Position numbers and translations under genes: made by a program. Below, one piece after another: positions 57,498 to 64,000 of a DNA stretch of 64,000 nt (position 1 is the stretch's first letter; each line of letters begins with the position of its first letter). Origin of the DNA: Knoellia sp. p5-6-4 (GTDB lineage: Bacteria; Actinomycetota; Actinomycetes; Actinomycetales; Dermatophilaceae); assembly GCF_029222705.1 (NCBI RefSeq), contig NZ_JARGZF010000002.1:310001-374000 (forward strand), read 5' to 3'. The notes beneath the pieces were generated by a model. The model did not search any database and was not told the origin of the DNA. It saw only the letters and a program-made list of their open reading frames with translations.

Positions 57498-59024
57498 TCA
57501 GCTCCTTGAGAGCCGGCGACGCGAGCGCCGGAGCGTTGTCGCCACCAGCGAGAGACCCGCGGCTCCCCCCGCGGCACGCAGCCAGCGCCTGGGATCGGTG
57601 GCGCGGCGTCGCCTCAGCGCCGACAGCGGCATGACATCGAGGTGAACTGCCGTCGCACCACCTCCGGGTGCGCGGCTGAAGACGACCCGGACACCGAAGC
57701 CCTCCTCGGACACCTGGAGGCGGAACACGTACGGGTCCTCCGCGTCGTCGGGATGGAGAGGAAGGCCTCGGTACAGGCCCGGGATCGCGGAGATGCTCCG
57801 AAGCATGAGCCGACCCCGGCGCACGAAGACCTCCACACCGGCGCCGAGAGCTCCTCGGGCTCGTACGTCGGTGAGCGGTCCGGATAGCGAGTACCAGCCG
57901 CAGACCTCGTTCCAGACCTCGGGATGCTGCGGGACATCGGTGCGCATCTCCTCAGCCTGAACGCGCAGCAGGAAGCCCAGGAGTCTTCCCATCTCGACCG
58001 GCATCCACATCGTCGCGCCGGGAGATCCGTTGGTGAGTGCCATGACGCCAACACCGTCGTGGGGTGCCAGGAAGATCTCGGCGTTGAAGCCGGGCACGAT
58101 CCCTTGGTGCTCGATGACCTGAGTGCCCGCCACAGTCCCCCGGAAGAAGGCCAGGCCGAGGCCGGGAATGCGAGGATCGGGCTGGTACTGCGGCGCGAAC
58201 ATCGAGCTGAGCGTTGCTGGCTGGAGCACGCGGCCGTGCACGTTGGCGCCCCCACCCAGGAGCGCCTCGACGTACCGGGCGATGTCCGCGGAAGTGGAGT
58301 ACGCCGCAGCGGCTGCCGCAGTGACGACCTCGTAGTCGGGGACGGCGCGAGGCCCCCTGGACCCCATGACGTAACCCGTCGCCAGACGGGGCGTGATCCG
58401 TCCAGAGCGGATGAGGGTGGTGTCTACCATGCCGAGGGGCGCGAAGACGTGCTCGCGCAGGTAGCGGTCGAGGGGCTCGCCGGTCACGTCCTCCACGATC
58501 TGGCCCAGGGTGGCGAAGCCGTGGTCGGTATACCTGAACCTCGTGCCGGGTTCCGCCTCCACCCGGACTCCGTGCCGGTAGTACTTGGCTAGGGAGGGCA
58601 CAGAATGGCCCGACTTCACGGTCTCGCCGAACAAGGGTCGCAGCACGCCCGAGGGGTGCAGCACCTCCCGGATCCCGGCGGTGTGCGTCATCAGGTGTCG
58701 CATCGTGACAGGACTGAAAGCGGGCTTGGTGGGCACCAGCCGGTATGAGCGCAGATAGTCCTCGGCGGGCGCGTCGAGGTCGACCTTGCCCCGCTCCCAC
58801 AGCTGCATCACCGCAACGGCGGTGAAGGTCTTGGTCAGGGAGCCGACACGGAAGACGGTCTCCGGGGTGACCGGCGTCCGCGATGAGACCTCCGCGACGC
58901 CGTGTCCGTGGAAGAACGGCAGCTCCCCGCTGCGGACCACTCCCACCGCCAGCCCCACGGCAGGTGACCGGTTCAGGATCAGGGCGACCTGCTCGGCAAT
59001 CTCCCCGGCGCCCAGCTCAGCCAT
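57498..59024 (-). CDS. serine hydrolase, class C beta-lactamase/esterase family (copy A)
   Basis: A 508-residue cytoplasmic-looking penicillin-binding-protein-like hydrolase with no signal peptide. The nucleophile motif is GSLTKTF (Ser-x-x-Lys). The YxN equivalent is YTDHG, and the KTG equivalent reads HQGIVPGF. Such proteins are often esterases or peptidases rather than beta-lactamases. A C-terminal extension of roughly 130 residues follows the hydrolase fold, ending in an Arg-rich tail. It is clearly paralogous to the divergent gene at 59379. Confidence 0.88.
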   Translation of the reverse strand: MAELGAGEIAEQVALILNRSPAVGLAVGVVRSGELPFFHGHGVAEVSSRTPVTPETVFRVGSLTKTFTAVAVMQLWERGKVDLDAPAEDYLRSYRLVPTKPAFSPVTMRHLMTHTAGIREVLHPSGVLRPLFGETVKSGHSVPSLAKYYRHGVRVEAEPGTRFRYTDHGFATLGQIVEDVTGEPLDRYLREHVFAPLGMVDTTLIRSGRITPRLATGYVMGSRGPRAVPDYEVVTAAAAAAYSTSADIARYVEALLGGGANVHGRVLQPATLSSMFAPQYQPDPRIPGLGLAFFRGTVAGTQVIEHQGIVPGFNAEIFLAPHDGVGVMALTNGSPGATMWMPVEMGRLLGFLLRVQAEEMRTDVPQHPEVWNEVCGWYSLSGPLTDVRARGALGAGVEVFVRRGRLMLRSISAIPGLYRGLPLHPDDAEDPYVFRLQVSEEGFGVRVVFSRAPGGGATAVHLDVMPLSALRRRRATDPRRWLRAAGGAAGLSLVATTLRRSRRRLSRS

Positions 59025-59130
59025 GTCACTCCCCCGACCGTTCACGACGCGGGCGGAGTGTCGCTCGCGCCCCGTCCGAGCCGTGGTCATGCTCGTCAAC
59101 ATCCCGTCCCACCCTGTCGCGCCGGCCGGC

Positions 59131-59229
59131 GGCGAGGAGGCCGATGTCCTGCGGCCACCTCTGGTCGACCCGAAGCATGATCCGGTCGTCTGCAGTCAGC
59201 CTGTTCACACTGATCACCTTCTCGACCAT
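59131..59229 (-). pseudogene. remnant start of a wax-ester-synthase/DGAT-like gene
   Basis: The frame from ATG 59229 reads MVEKVISVNRLTADDRIML, then RVDQRWPQDIGLLAA. This is the typical opening of actinobacterial WS/DGAT-like acyltransferases. After about 33 residues the similarity ends in low-complexity charged sequence, and the frame stops at 59026. It lies in the gap between the two divergent serine hydrolases. It is best read as a decayed fragment. Confidence 0.6.
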
Positions 59230-59378
59230 TGTGTGCCGGGTGTTCCGCGCGCGGCCAGTGCCCTCGCCCCAGCGTCGGACAAGTGGGCTCTTGTCAAAGG
59301 GCCTCGACCGGCGGAGCGTGGAGGAGATGTCGCACCAGGCTGGCTTGGTGGGAGTGTCGATCGCGCGGAGGGGTCGTG

Positions 59379-60812
59379 ATGCCCGGGTTGAGCGAGCAGG
59401 GACTGGAGCAGAGGGTCGCGGAGATCTTGAACCGCTGGCCCGCCGTCGGCCTCGCGGTCGGCGTCATCAGACGTGGCTCACCGATGCTCTTCTACTCCCA
59501 CGGAATGGCGAACGTCGCGGATCAGATCCCCGTCACCGAACACACCGTCTTCCGGATCGGGTCCATCACCAAGACCGTCACCGCGGTCGCGCTCATGCAG
59601 CTGTGGGAGAAGGGACTCGTCGACCTGGACCGGCCGGCCAACGACTACCTGCGGGCGTTCGAGCTGGTGCCGTCGAGGCCGGCCTGGCGCCCTGCGACCC
59701 TGCGGCACCTGCTGACGCACACCGCCGGGGTGCCGGAGTGGGTGCGGCCGACGCAAATGGTCCGCAGCCGCTGGTTCGGGGAGACCTTCGCGCTGGAGGA
59801 GCGGCTCCCGACCCTGGGGGAGTTCTACCGGGGCCGGCTCCGGCTCGACGCCGAGCCCGGCACGGTCTGGGCCTACACCGACCACGGGATCGCGACCGTG
59901 GGGCAGATCGTCGAGGACGTCACCGAGGTACCCCTGCACCGTTACCTGGCCGAGCACGTCTTCGCGCCGCTCGGCATGACCGACAGCGACCTGCTGCGGT
60001 CCGAGCAGCTCCAGAGCCGCCTGGCCACCGGCTACACGCTCACCCGCTCCGGGCCGAAGGCGCTCACCGACCGCCAGGGCGTGACCGCAGCGGCCGGGGC
60101 CATCTACTCGACGCCGCGAGACATGGCGCGCTACGTGGCGGCGCTGGTCGGGGATGGCGTCGGCGGGCACGGCACGATCCTGAAACCCGAGACCCTGACC
60201 ACGATGTTCGCCCCTCACTACCAGCCGGATCCGCGCATCCCCGGCATGGGGCTGGCGTTCTGGCGCGGTGAGCTCGGCGGACGCGCCGTCGTGGAACACC
60301 AGGGCGTGGTGCCAGGGTTCAACTCCCAGATCTACCTCGCCCCTGCGGACGGTGTCGGGGTGATGGCCTTCACCAATGGCTCCAGGAACGCCGGGTCCTG
60401 GCTCGTCGCCGAGATGGCCCGACTGCTCGGCGACCTCCTCGGAGCCGACGAGGACCGCATCCGCACCGACGTCCCGCTGCGCCCCGACCTCTGGGCCGAC
60501 CTGTGCGGCTGGTACCGGCCCCGAGCGCAGCGCACCGACCTGATGGCTCGGCTGGTCATGGGCGCCGGCGTGCAGGTGTCGGTGCGGCGCGGCCGGCTCG
60601 TCCTCCGGGCCCTCAGCCCGATGCCGACGCTGTACCGAGGCCTGACGCTCCACCCCGCCGACCGGGACGACCCGGATGCCTTCCAACTCGACCTTGGCCG
60701 CTTCGGTCTGGGAACCGGAAGGGTCGTGTTCGGCCGCGACGGGTCCGGCCGGGCCACGGCGGTGCACTTCGACGGGCTTCTGCTCTCCGCAGACAAGCAC
60801 TCGTCCGGCTAG
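59379..60812 (+). CDS. serine hydrolase, class C beta-lactamase/esterase family (copy B)
   Basis: A 477-residue paralogue of the divergent copy A, alignable along its whole length. It has ILNRWPAVGLAVGVIRRG, nucleophile GSITKTV, then HTAGVPEWV, YTDHGIATVGQIVEDVT and HQGVVPGFN. It lacks the Arg-rich tail of copy A. GGAGGGG lies five bases before the ATG at 59379. Substrate unknown. The inverted pair suggests a local duplication. Confidence 0.9.
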   Translation: MPGLSEQGLEQRVAEILNRWPAVGLAVGVIRRGSPMLFYSHGMANVADQIPVTEHTVFRIGSITKTVTAVALMQLWEKGLVDLDRPANDYLRAFELVPSRPAWRPATLRHLLTHTAGVPEWVRPTQMVRSRWFGETFALEERLPTLGEFYRGRLRLDAEPGTVWAYTDHGIATVGQIVEDVTEVPLHRYLAEHVFAPLGMTDSDLLRSEQLQSRLATGYTLTRSGPKALTDRQGVTAAAGAIYSTPRDMARYVAALVGDGVGGHGTILKPETLTTMFAPHYQPDPRIPGMGLAFWRGELGGRAVVEHQGVVPGFNSQIYLAPADGVGVMAFTNGSRNAGSWLVAEMARLLGDLLGADEDRIRTDVPLRPDLWADLCGWYRPRAQRTDLMARLVMGAGVQVSVRRGRLVLRALSPMPTLYRGLTLHPADRDDPDAFQLDLGRFGLGTGRVVFGRDGSGRATAVHFDGLLLSADKHSSG

Positions 60813-60844
60813 GGCCCCCGGGGCGCTTGGCATGAGGACGGATG

Positions 60845-61250
60845 GGTGGATGAGTCGGCCGATACGCCGGGTTCTGTTCCGCGCCGCCGTTACCAGCGGC
60901 GCGGCGACGGTCATCCATCTACGACAGCCGTTGCCGACTGCCTCCAGCGCTCTACCCGTGTGCTCGGGCGGGCCGCCCTCGAACGCACACTGTCTGAGCT
61001 TGCTCCCAGTGGGGTTTACCGAGCCGACCCCGTCACCGGGGCCGCTGGTGGTCTCTTACACCACCGTTTCACCCTTACCGCGGCGCCTTCCGGCCCGAAG
61101 ACCAGCGGTTCGCCGTGGCGGTCTGCTTTCTGTGGCACTGTCCCGCGGGTCACCCCGGGTGGCCGTTAGCCACCACTGCGCCCTGTGGAGCCCGGACGTT
61201 CCTCGGCGGTGATTGCTCACCGACGCGACCGCCTGGCCGACTCATCCACC
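60845..61250 (-). ncRNA. rnpB: RNase P RNA (class A)
   Basis: Ribozyme that trims the 5' leader of tRNA precursors. On the minus strand the conserved core elements appear in order: GAGGAACGTCCGGGCTCCAC (P4/CR-I region), ACAGAAA, GGTAAGGGTGAAA, GAGACCACCAGC and, near the 3' end, the ACAGAACCCGGCGTAT-type CR-V segment. The ends pair to form helix P1 over about 16 bp (GGTGGATGAGTCGGCC with its complement at 60845-60860). About 406 nt. The ends are set from P1, so they are accurate to a few bases. Confidence 0.96.
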
Positions 61251-61386: not shown

Positions 61387-62229
61387 ATGTGTCGATGGCT
61401 CGCATACTCGGGTTCCCCCGTCAACCTGGAGGACCTGCTCTTCAAGCCCAAGAACTCGCTGGTCGTCCAGAGCAAGCACTCGCAGCTGGGCGCCGAGACG
61501 ACCAACGGCGATGGGTTCGGCGTCGGATGGTACGGCCGCTTCGAGACGCCCGGGGTCTTCCGCAGCATCGAGCCGGCGTGGAACGACCGCAACCTGCGCG
61601 AGCTGGCCGCCCACGCGCAGGCCGGCCGGGTGTTCGCCCACATCCGGGCGTCCACGGGTTCGCCGGTGCAGCAGTCGAACTGCCACCCGTTCCGCCACGA
61701 CCGCTGGCTCTTCATGCACAACGGCTCCGTCGCCGACTTCCGCAGGGTCAAGCGCGACCTCGTACTGGCCGTCGACCCGGAGCTCTACCCCGACATCGAC
61801 GGGTCGACGGACTCAGAGGTGCTGTTCTTCCTGGCGATGACGTTCGGGCTGAAGGACGACCCGCCGGCCGCGATGGCCCGGGCCGTCGGGTTCGTGGAGG
61901 ACGTCGGGAAGCGCCACGGGGTCCCCTGGCCCATCCAGATGACCGTGGCAACGACGGATGGCGAGACGACCTGGGCGTTCCGGTACTCGAGCGAAGGTCG
62001 TTCGCGATCCCTGTTCCACAGCGCCGACATCCTGACCCTGCGGGAGCAGTACCCGGACCACCCGATGCTCAAGGAGCTCTCCGACGATGCCCGCCTCGTG
62101 GTGTCGGAGCCGCTGGGCGACCTGAGGGGCGTGTGGCACGAGGTTCCCGAGGCGACGTTCCTGACCGTTCGTGGAGCCGACATGCGGCTGGACTCCTTCG
62201 CGCCCACCACCCCTCAGGCCGCGGCCTGA
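61387..62229 (+). CDS. class II glutamine amidotransferase (YafJ/EgtC-like)
   Basis: Single-domain N-terminal-nucleophile glutaminase of 280 residues. It begins MCRWLAYSG, so Cys2 becomes the nucleophile after Met removal. NGDGFGVGWYG, FAHIRASTGSPVQQSNCHPF and the substrate loop FMHNGSV match the family. EgtC-like ergothioneine hydrolases share this fold, but no egt genes are near, so that role is not claimed. AAGGAGG lies five bases before the ATG at 61387. Confidence 0.92.
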   Translation: MCRWLAYSGSPVNLEDLLFKPKNSLVVQSKHSQLGAETTNGDGFGVGWYGRFETPGVFRSIEPAWNDRNLRELAAHAQAGRVFAHIRASTGSPVQQSNCHPFRHDRWLFMHNGSVADFRRVKRDLVLAVDPELYPDIDGSTDSEVLFFLAMTFGLKDDPPAAMARAVGFVEDVGKRHGVPWPIQMTVATTDGETTWAFRYSSEGRSRSLFHSADILTLREQYPDHPMLKELSDDARLVVSEPLGDLRGVWHEVPEATFLTVRGADMRLDSFAPTTPQAAA

Positions 62230-62243
62230 TCGGGCGGTGACCC

Positions 62244-63386
62244 GTGGCGACGGCTCGGCACCTCGGCGGCCAGGACGCGTTTCCGGCTCCGCCCGGCGCG
62301 GCACGGCCCGGACCGGACATCGGGCTCGGCGCGCCACGCCTGGTGCCCCTGAGCCCTGACGACCACGCGGAGCCGTCGCTGGGTGACGTGGCACTCGGCG
62401 CGTCATCCCTTGGGCTCGGCCTCGCGGGCCGCCTCGTCCGCGCGGGGTCGTCCGTGGTGCGCCCTACTGCGAGTCTGGTGCTGCGACCACCGGGAGTGCC
62501 GTCGTTCCTGCAGCCGGCGCGGGTGGTCCAGAGGCTCGGGCGGATCGGCTCCGCCCGGCGACGCTCGCTCGAGCAGGCTGTCTCGGCGCTGCTCGACGAT
62601 GTCGTGCCGGTGATGGCGGAGGTCATCCTCGGGCGCCTGGACCTCACCGACGTCGTCCTGCGTCAGGTCGACCTCGACGCGGTCGTCGCCGGCGTCGACC
62701 TCGACGCGGCGGCCGCACGCCTGGACATCGAAGCGGTGCTGAACCGGCTCGACCTCACCGAGCTGGTGCGCGACCGCGTGGACCTCGACTCCGTGGTGGA
62801 GGAAGTCGACCTCGACGCGATCGTGCGCCGGGTCGACATCGGCGCTGTGATCGACCGACTCGACCTCACCGCCCTCGTCCGGCAGCGCGTCGACCTGAAT
62901 GCCGTTGCGGCTCAGCTCGACATCGATGCCATCCTCGACCGCCTCGACCTCACCGCCCTGGTCCAGGAACGCGTCGACCTCGACGCCATCGTGGCCGGCG
63001 TGAACCTCGACGACATCGCACGGCGCCTCGATGTGGAGGCCGTGATCGACCGGCTCGACCTGACGGCGATCGTGCTGACCCGGGTCGACCTCGAGGCGCT
63101 CGTCAACGCCGTGTTGGCGCGCATCGACCTCGTGGGCCTGGCCGAAGAGGTCATCGACGCGGTCGACCTGCCCGAGATCATCCGGGAGTCCACGGGCTCG
63201 ATGGCCTCGGAGACGGTGCGGGGTGCGCGACTGCAGGGCATCCACGCCGACGAGGCCGTCAGCAGAGCCGTGGACCGGCTGCTGCTCAGGCGTGCCCGTC
63301 GCCACCCGGGTGGACCGAGCGACCAGCTCGATAGCCCGGGACCGGTCGAGCCTCGTCAGGAACCGCCCGGTCCGGGACACCGGTGA
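62244..63386 (+). CDS. repeat protein with a 37-residue (four-unit) leucine/aspartate period
   Basis: A 380-residue protein of unknown function. An N-terminal Pro/Gly-rich part (1-75) and helical segment (80-130) precede a solenoid-like stretch (about 131-310). Its units are 8-10 residues of the form RLDLTALVRQ, RVDLDAIVAG, VDLDAIVRR, VDIGAVID. Four such units make a 37-residue super-repeat. It ends in a basic, Pro-rich tail. No signal peptide. The stop overlaps the start of the RDD membrane protein, so they probably work together. The start GTG lacks a good ribosome site. Confidence 0.78.
   Translation: MATARHLGGQDAFPAPPGAARPGPDIGLGAPRLVPLSPDDHAEPSLGDVALGASSLGLGLAGRLVRAGSSVVRPTASLVLRPPGVPSFLQPARVVQRLGRIGSARRRSLEQAVSALLDDVVPVMAEVILGRLDLTDVVLRQVDLDAVVAGVDLDAAAARLDIEAVLNRLDLTELVRDRVDLDSVVEEVDLDAIVRRVDIGAVIDRLDLTALVRQRVDLNAVAAQLDIDAILDRLDLTALVQERVDLDAIVAGVNLDDIARRLDVEAVIDRLDLTAIVLTRVDLEALVNAVLARIDLVGLAEEVIDAVDLPEIIRESTGSMASETVRGARLQGIHADEAVSRAVDRLLLRRARRHPGGPSDQLDSPGPVEPRQEPPGPGHR
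62634..63161 (+). repeat. 111-bp in-frame DNA repeats in the solenoid gene
   Basis: The RLDLT codon block starts at 62634, 62745, 62856, 62940 and 63051, i.e. spacings of 111, 111, 84 and 111 bases. The 84-base unit lacks one nine-residue module. Divergence between copies shows the repeat is old and selected at protein level. Confidence 0.85.
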
Positions 63387-63868
63387 GCGCCGTGACGACG
63401 AGCAGCATCTCGCCACTCCCGCCTGAGGCTCGGCCCTACCAGGGGCACCGTGCCGGACTGGTCACCCGCCTGGTGGCGGCGACCATCGACGCGTTGCTGG
63501 TCGGTCTCGTGCTCCTGCTGGGCTACGCGGGTCTCGCCACCTTGCGCTTCCTCATCGACCCGCGCACCTTCTCCTTCCCCGAGCCGGGCCTGTTCTTCAG
63601 CCTCACCGCGGCCCTCACGGTGCTCGTCGTCTACCTCACGGTGTCGTGGTGGATCACCGGGCGCACCTACGGCTGCCACGTGATGGGCCTGCGCGTGGTG
63701 AGCCACAACGGGTCGAACATGAGGTTCCTCGGCGCGCTGGTCCGTGCGTGGTTCTGCGCCTTCTTCCCGATCGGGCTCCTGTGGGCAGCGGTGAACCGCG
63801 AGAACCGATCGGTGCAGGACATCGTTCTGCGCACCTCGGTCCTCTACGACTGGCAGCCCCACCGCTGA
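63383..63868 (+). CDS. RDD-family membrane protein
   Basis: A 161-residue protein with three hydrophobic spans and the RDD-family pattern: GLVTRLVAATIDALLVGLVL (span 1 with the Arg/Asp pair), VVYLTVSWWITGRTYGCHVMGLRVV, then FCAFFPIGLLWAAVN, ending NRSVQDIVLRTSVLY. The role of RDD proteins is mostly unknown; some influence transport or ion balance. GTG overlaps the stop of the repeat protein (GTGA). Confidence 0.88.
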   Translation: MSAVTTSSISPLPPEARPYQGHRAGLVTRLVAATIDALLVGLVLLLGYAGLATLRFLIDPRTFSFPEPGLFFSLTAALTVLVVYLTVSWWITGRTYGCHVMGLRVVSHNGSNMRFLGALVRAWFCAFFPIGLLWAAVNRENRSVQDIVLRTSVLYDWQPHR

Positions 63869-63884
63869 CCGACGAAGCGCACAA

Positions 63885-63916
63885 GCCAGCCCCGGTGCTG
63901 GAGCACCGGGGCTGGC
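63885..63916. terminator. terminator after the RDD gene
   Basis: GCCAGCCCCGGTGC, TGGA, then the exact complement: a 14-bp stem with a four-base loop, between the RDD stop and a probable convergent gene. Confidence 0.82.
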
Positions 63917-63929
63917 GCACCACGTCCGG

Positions 63930-64000
63930 TCAGGCCGAGACCTGCGCCCCGGTGCCACTCCTCTGCGGGCTCCAGCCCGGCACGTCGGCCGCGGGCCGCG
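63930..64000 (-). CDS. possible C-terminal end of a convergent gene
   Basis: The minus strand holds an open frame with 23 codons in the window, ending ...RPAADVPGWSPQRSGTGAQV and two more residues before TGA. It runs off the right edge. The terminator next to it fits a convergent gene end. No family can be assigned from this fragment. Confidence 0.35.
   Translation of the reverse strand, partial: RPAADVPGWSPQRSGTGAQVSA

Follow-up and report, generated by a model that had tools for sequence, protein, structure and literature searches.

A short-unit repeat protein and an RDD-family membrane protein form a conserved gene unit in actinobacterial genomes

A protein carrying an array of very short repeats and a membrane protein of the RDD family form a conserved unit. 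We studied the pair in the window, that is, the whole stretch of DNA analyzed (64,000 nucleotides of Knoellia sp. p5-6-4). Two results lead to this conclusion. An RDD domain directly follows the repeat protein, or is fused to it, in every relative that can be judged, and these RDD proteins form a clade of their own. We give a probability of about 45% to the reading that the pair is a membrane-bound module, in which a dedicated RDD subunit holds a cytoplasmic scaffold of variable length.

The repeat-protein gene and the RDD gene in the window

Three genes lie in a run at the window's right end, encoding an amidotransferase, the repeat protein, and the RDD protein, and a hairpin follows them (Table 1). 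The original prediction had the repeat protein coupled through GTGA to an RDD protein. That overlap is present, and the downstream product matches the Pfam RDD family (PF06271) with an E value of 5.5e-13 and a score of 49.8 bits, above the Pfam cut-off of 24.1. By hydropathy, it has three hydrophobic segments (residues 30-48, 69-87, and 115-133). The RDD-defining residues are R29 at the start of the first segment, D36 within it, and D146 near the C terminus. The domain, the three defining residues, and the three hydrophobic segments are shared with the RDD family, including Halobacillus andaensis RDD and Bacillus subtilis SppI. There are four RDD matches in the window genome in total.

Table 1. 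Features at the right end of the window
Feature	Position	Strand	Basis or remark
Class-II glutamine amidotransferase, EgtC-like, below the EgtC cut-off	61387..62229	+	14 nt upstream of the repeat-protein gene; context only
Repeat-protein gene, 380 aa, GTG start	62244..63386	+	ORF list; codon-position bias versus Pedococcus cremeus L003
N-terminal region, residues 1-131	62244..62636	+	Last segment before the repeats is a borderline hydrophobic helix (residues 112-130, AVSALLDDVVPVMAEVILG)
Repeat array, residues 132-306	62637..63161	+	Units 10-9-9-9, 10-9-9-9, 10-9-9, 10-9-9-9, 10-13-13; shuffles, family statistics
Conserved C-terminal domain, residues 307-354, VDLPEIIRESTGSMASETVRG...ADEAVSRAVDRLLLRR	63162..63305	+	Alignments A1 and A3; genome searches
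GTGA overlap of repeat-protein stop and RDD start codon	63383..63386	+	4 nt
RDD-family membrane protein, 161 aa	63383..63868	+	PF06271; hydropathy; conservation
Hairpin, 14 bp, GC-rich, just 3' of the RDD gene	63885..63916	+	Without a T run

A pattern scan at the 3' end of the RDD gene called no terminator. The folding energy of positions 63869-63930 is -41.4 kcal/mol (z = -4.94), and the hairpin there is a possible transcription end. The amidotransferase gene lies in the same order at one P. cremeus locus (L002). It was seen in this genus only, with no match among the other loci searched, many of which had only about 1.5 kb of flank. It is outside the conserved unit.

The array has the four-unit, 37-residue super-repeats that had been predicted, with exact coordinates. 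There are three full copies of 10-9-9-9 (residues 132-168, 169-205, and 234-270), and a fourth of 28 residues (10-9-9, residues 206-233) has lost exactly one unit, also as predicted. One 10-residue unit and two 13-residue units follow and run into the C-terminal domain, so that unit starts span residues 132-307. The predicted Asp-Leu every 9 to 10 residues held for the spacing but not for the Leu, because the residue after Asp may be Leu, Ile, or Val. The longest chain in the 9/10 register has 17 units. Shuffling the whole protein 5,000 times gave at most 3 units, and shuffling residues 125-320 5,000 times gave at most 4. The register is far beyond chance.

Ahead of the array, the AVSALLDDVVPVMAEVILG segment has a hydropathy of 1.63, and residues 104-131 are helical in a low-confidence AlphaFold2 model of the protein. 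Comparison with a P. cremeus fragment (L003) gave 16/12/53 differences by codon position over 151 codons of the repeat protein and 28/11/63 over 157 codons of the RDD gene. This pattern shows that selection acts on the repeat-protein frame at the protein level. In the draft assembly of P. cremeus, a break inside the array leaves the gene on two contig ends (L002 4001-4870 and L003 3-455).

Relatives are linked to a distinct clade of RDD proteins

We searched for relatives with the whole repeat protein, with a profile of its C-terminal 65 residues (A1), and with a broader profile (A3). The C-terminal domain was the bait by which relatives were retrieved. With the whole protein, matches came from 8 of 58 near genomes, a tally that still includes one false match (G018). 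Profile A1 matched 67 of 393 genomes of the class, in 31 of 123 genera, and the loci of all 67 were retrieved. Profile A3 matched 35 of 396 genomes of the phylum, a tally that still includes three matches found false on inspection (G554, G616, and G633). These four weak matches have neither repeat nor RDD at the locus and were excluded; by eye, G554 resembles lysyl-tRNA synthetase. Among the actinobacterial genomes searched, all of one phylum, the distribution of the pair is patchy. The ORFs of the window, L001, L004-L010, and L015-L134 yielded a first pool of 96 distinct proteins that carry the C-terminal domain. The remaining matches, checked later, added three fusions (L155, L156, and L160), giving 99 distinct relatives.

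An RDD domain lies directly after the repeat protein or is fused to it in 97 of these 99. The two exceptions stop at a contig edge, where 0 and 124 bases remain, and the count among judgeable relatives is 97 of 97. How often the two genes travel together had been left to be checked in the original prediction, and what we found is the opposite of rare linkage. The link to RDD is not built in, because relatives were sought with the repeat protein or its C-terminal domain and not with RDD. All 97 come from one phylum, and the number is not a count of independent events, because the proteins share descent.

In the first pool, 94 proteins have an RDD partner: 33 with a GTGA overlap, 28 with an ATGA overlap, 17 otherwise close, and 16 fused. 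The 4-nt overlap of the window therefore recurs in 61 of 94. Where the genes are separate (78 pairs), the distance from the repeat-protein stop to the start of the RDD domain ranges from -25 to 91 nt. With the added relatives, fusions number 19 of 97. They join array, C-terminal domain, and RDD in a single polypeptide (L092, L095, L097, L098, L099, L119, L120, L123, L124, L126, and L127, and further L129-L132, L134, L155, L156, and L160). RDD domains were called with a profile started from the window RDD protein, and with Pfam for the window and three fused proteins; Pfam confirmed all three of the latter (L095, L097, and L099). The C-terminal domain adjoins RDD in both architectures and in the fusions lies directly before it. 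Some fused proteins have VDPNRLLDR-type units.

We also built a FastTree tree of 50 partner RDDs (the 16 fused and 34 taken at random from the 78 separate) and 20 nonpartner RDDs chosen from 55 in related genomes. Partners and nonpartners separated without error in this 70-sequence tree, with a local support of 0.954, and the 16 fused RDDs clustered with one unfused RDD (support of 0.783). All 94 aligned partners have G25, R29, D36, G102, and D146, and 93 of the 94 have R121. Unlike the 20 other RDDs of related genomes, the window-type RDD belongs to a clade of its own, whose members are linked to the repeat protein in every judgeable relative.

The original prediction spoke of a two-component membrane-associated system. 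The conserved unit of two genes stands, and the term is best taken to mean two subunits, not a kinase/regulator pair. The overlaps and fusions make a physical complex of the two proteins likely. RDD proteins occur commonly, and for most of them no role is known. Having a partner that is coupled by overlap, close, or fused in every judgeable relative gives direct access to one RDD clade, and the existence of separate and fused forms lends itself to simple complex and deletion tests.

Comparison with known families

Searches of Pfam and NCBIfam with the window repeat protein gave no match at E values up to 10. The prediction of no obvious match to leucine-rich repeats (LRR), TPR, or pentapeptide repeats was borne out. 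LRR profiles matched neither the window protein (Pfam, E up to 10) nor ten relatives (E up to 1), and no TPR, pentapeptide, or other catalogued repeat rose above the Pfam or NCBIfam cut-off in these proteins. Besides RDD, the ten relatives had sub-threshold matches only. A weak Band_7 match of L031 (E of 0.0093) was rejected, that family not being among those matched by members of the C-terminal alignment. When 44 members of that alignment were compared with Pfam, no family was matched by more than 5, and the best E value among those was 0.064.

Against PDB chains, the C-terminal profile had no match and the window repeat protein had a best E value of 0.32. Chain 9e5c_0q was matched by L063 (E of 4e-8) and L097 (E of 0.0019). 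We rejected homology and take this match as shared repetitive composition, because the alignments have i-Evalues of 0.03 or worse and, for L063, large bias terms. The chain is a LIM-domain protein with nine-residue VEATEVAEA-like repeats, and its solved shape might hint at the role of nine-residue arrays. In PHROG, L063 and L097 match families of unknown function (best E of 6.2e-15, from L063 to two families). A tblastn search with L063 found a single Maribacter phage (two records), matched over an 11% stretch, and there were no plasmid matches.

No described system matching the pair was found among the matches listed from curated libraries and open-licence literature. RTX nonapeptide repeats share a nine-residue unit with a conserved Asp. 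Their consensus is glycine-rich. In contrast, the unit studied here has no glycine-rich turns, and its position table departs from the RTX consensus. A passage of PMC12419801 describes VanZ-RDD fusions, in which RDD is joined to another domain, with a proposed action at the cytoplasmic face. Here, RDD is partnered by an array of short units that has a C-terminal domain of its own, a combination that the passage on VanZ-RDD does not mention.

The repeat unit and the proposed module

Most units have 9 to 10 residues. We compiled statistics for 598 nine-residue units across the relatives, found with a pattern that fixed residue classes at positions 1, 2, 3, and 6. Because these positions were preset, the free ones carry the weight. 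Asp occupies position 2 in 96% of units and Arg position 9 in 72%, and positions 1, 3, 6, and 7 are hydrophobic. Pro occurs in 8.2% at position 3, in 1.7% at position 5, and in at most 0.2% at positions 4, 7, 8, and 9; Gly is at most 6.9% at every position. In ten-residue units, Pro is also found at position 10 (3.4%), and 13-residue units have extra hydrophobic positions at 10 and 11. The unit statistics favor a two-turn helix with Asp as its N-cap as the most likely reading. The Asp at position 2, the Pro pattern, and the hydrophobic positions fit such a helix, and the 13-residue units fit the addition of one further turn. If nine-residue units are single helices, the repeat fold would be unusually small. 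To our knowledge, such a unit would be shorter than any helical repeat class.

By pattern count, relatives have 1 to 31 units (median of 7), the longest array being that of L063 (3864-5459), with 31 nine-residue units. In some arrays (L001 and L007), the tandem units are almost identical in sequence. The range in number and the near-identical tandem units suggest that array length is readily altered while the C-terminal domain stays constant. Since some relatives have only one or two counted units, the array is not essential to the core.

A C-terminal domain that is constant beside RDD and an array that varies favor a membrane-anchored scaffold or spacer. In such a module, the RDD protein would be the membrane subunit, to which the repeat protein would attach through its conserved C-terminal helical domain. 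The array would lie at the cytoplasmic face as an elongated scaffold or spacer of variable length, its very short units being two-turn helices with the conserved Asp as cap, and it might offer repeated docking surfaces or set a distance from the membrane. We infer both the helical units and the scaffold role. The array would be cytoplasmic if the RDD N terminus is inside, as we have taken it to be, and the hydrophobic stretch at the start of the fused protein L095 weighs against this. The RDD domain may bind or sense a small ligand or ion through its conserved Arg and Asp residues; a passage of PMC12419801 proposes for RDD an intramembrane binding site that faces the cytoplasm. A bolder form makes the array an alpha-solenoid of single two-turn helices. 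Anchored in the membrane by a subunit from the dedicated RDD clade, it would serve as a ruler or docking rail that can expand. We regard that form as possible but doubtful.

We consider it unlikely that the RDD protein works as a cation/H+ antiporter, or as some other small transporter, with the repeat protein as its cytoplasmic regulator. The part of PMC5996927 on Halobacillus andaensis RDD describes Na+(Li+,K+)/H+ antiport that needs R124, R129, D154, and D158. By chain offset, two of these four are matched in the window RDD, R129 and D154 falling on the conserved R121 and D146. However, R124 and D158 fall on L116 and R150, again by offset and not by alignment. Across the 94 partners, Arg is found at position 116 in 19 proteins; at position 150, 88 have Arg or Gly, and Asp is not one of the six commonest residues there. 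Also, Bacillus SppI, which is 39% identical to Halobacillus RDD, inhibits a protease and has no salt or alkali phenotype, according to a passage of PMC7568657.

The array might instead be a passive tether that expands and shrinks neutrally, with only the C-terminal domain and RDD mattering. The spread in unit number and the near-identical tandem units would fit. However, the sampled relatives retain both the Asp at position 2 and the hydrophobic positions, and the window array with its C-terminal domain is under protein-level constraint in the comparison with P. cremeus. We hold a purely passive tether to be unlikely as well.

The structure models do not establish the solenoid that the original prediction named. 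AlphaFold2 built short helices for the window repeat protein from a four-row alignment (mean pLDDT of 38.5), with helix at positions 3-9 in 7 of 11 nine-residue units, in part of an eighth, and in none of the five 10-residue units. For the Nocardioides relative L001, which has 23-residue units, a single-sequence model gave a beta-alpha, LRR-like coil (pLDDT of 54.5) that renders the 10-residue unit as a strand. The two models conflict, and both are of low confidence. When the L001 model was compared with the PDB by Foldseek, the top three matches were the LRR protein SKP2 (best E of 0.065, TM of 0.37), and most others listed were TIM-barrel-type enzymes. An LRR-like beta-alpha solenoid, with LDLTxVV as the strand and the repeat protein as a ligand-binding subunit, would account for that model and for the LxxLDL-like spacing of the Nocardioides version, but it is improbable given so weak a fold match, the predominance of shorter units, the lack of any Pfam match for the window protein, and the little space left for an LRR unit by arrays built strictly of nine-residue units that have Pro at position 3 (L095 and L097).

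Neighborhood of the pair

Clustering of neighbors at 58 loci gave no shared pathway among the matches listed. Likewise, a Pfam scan of 78 neighbors from 23 of 33 chosen loci gave none in the best 25 of 90 families. Neither analysis pointed to a function for the pair. Near the pair, 14 of the 58 loci (for example, L075 2572-3105) encode a small membrane protein, at a median of about 0.9 kb downstream; its C terminus may be of the SHOCT type.

Elsewhere in the window, a class A RNase P RNA lies at 60847-61244 on the minus strand (297.7 bits). The ORFs at 60676-61212 and 60846-61169 are probably spurious because of it; P. cremeus L002 has an ORF closely similar to them. By eye, the genes at 57498-59102 (minus strand) and 59229-60812 (plus strand) are similar, divergent, and serine-hydrolase-like (beta-lactamase type).
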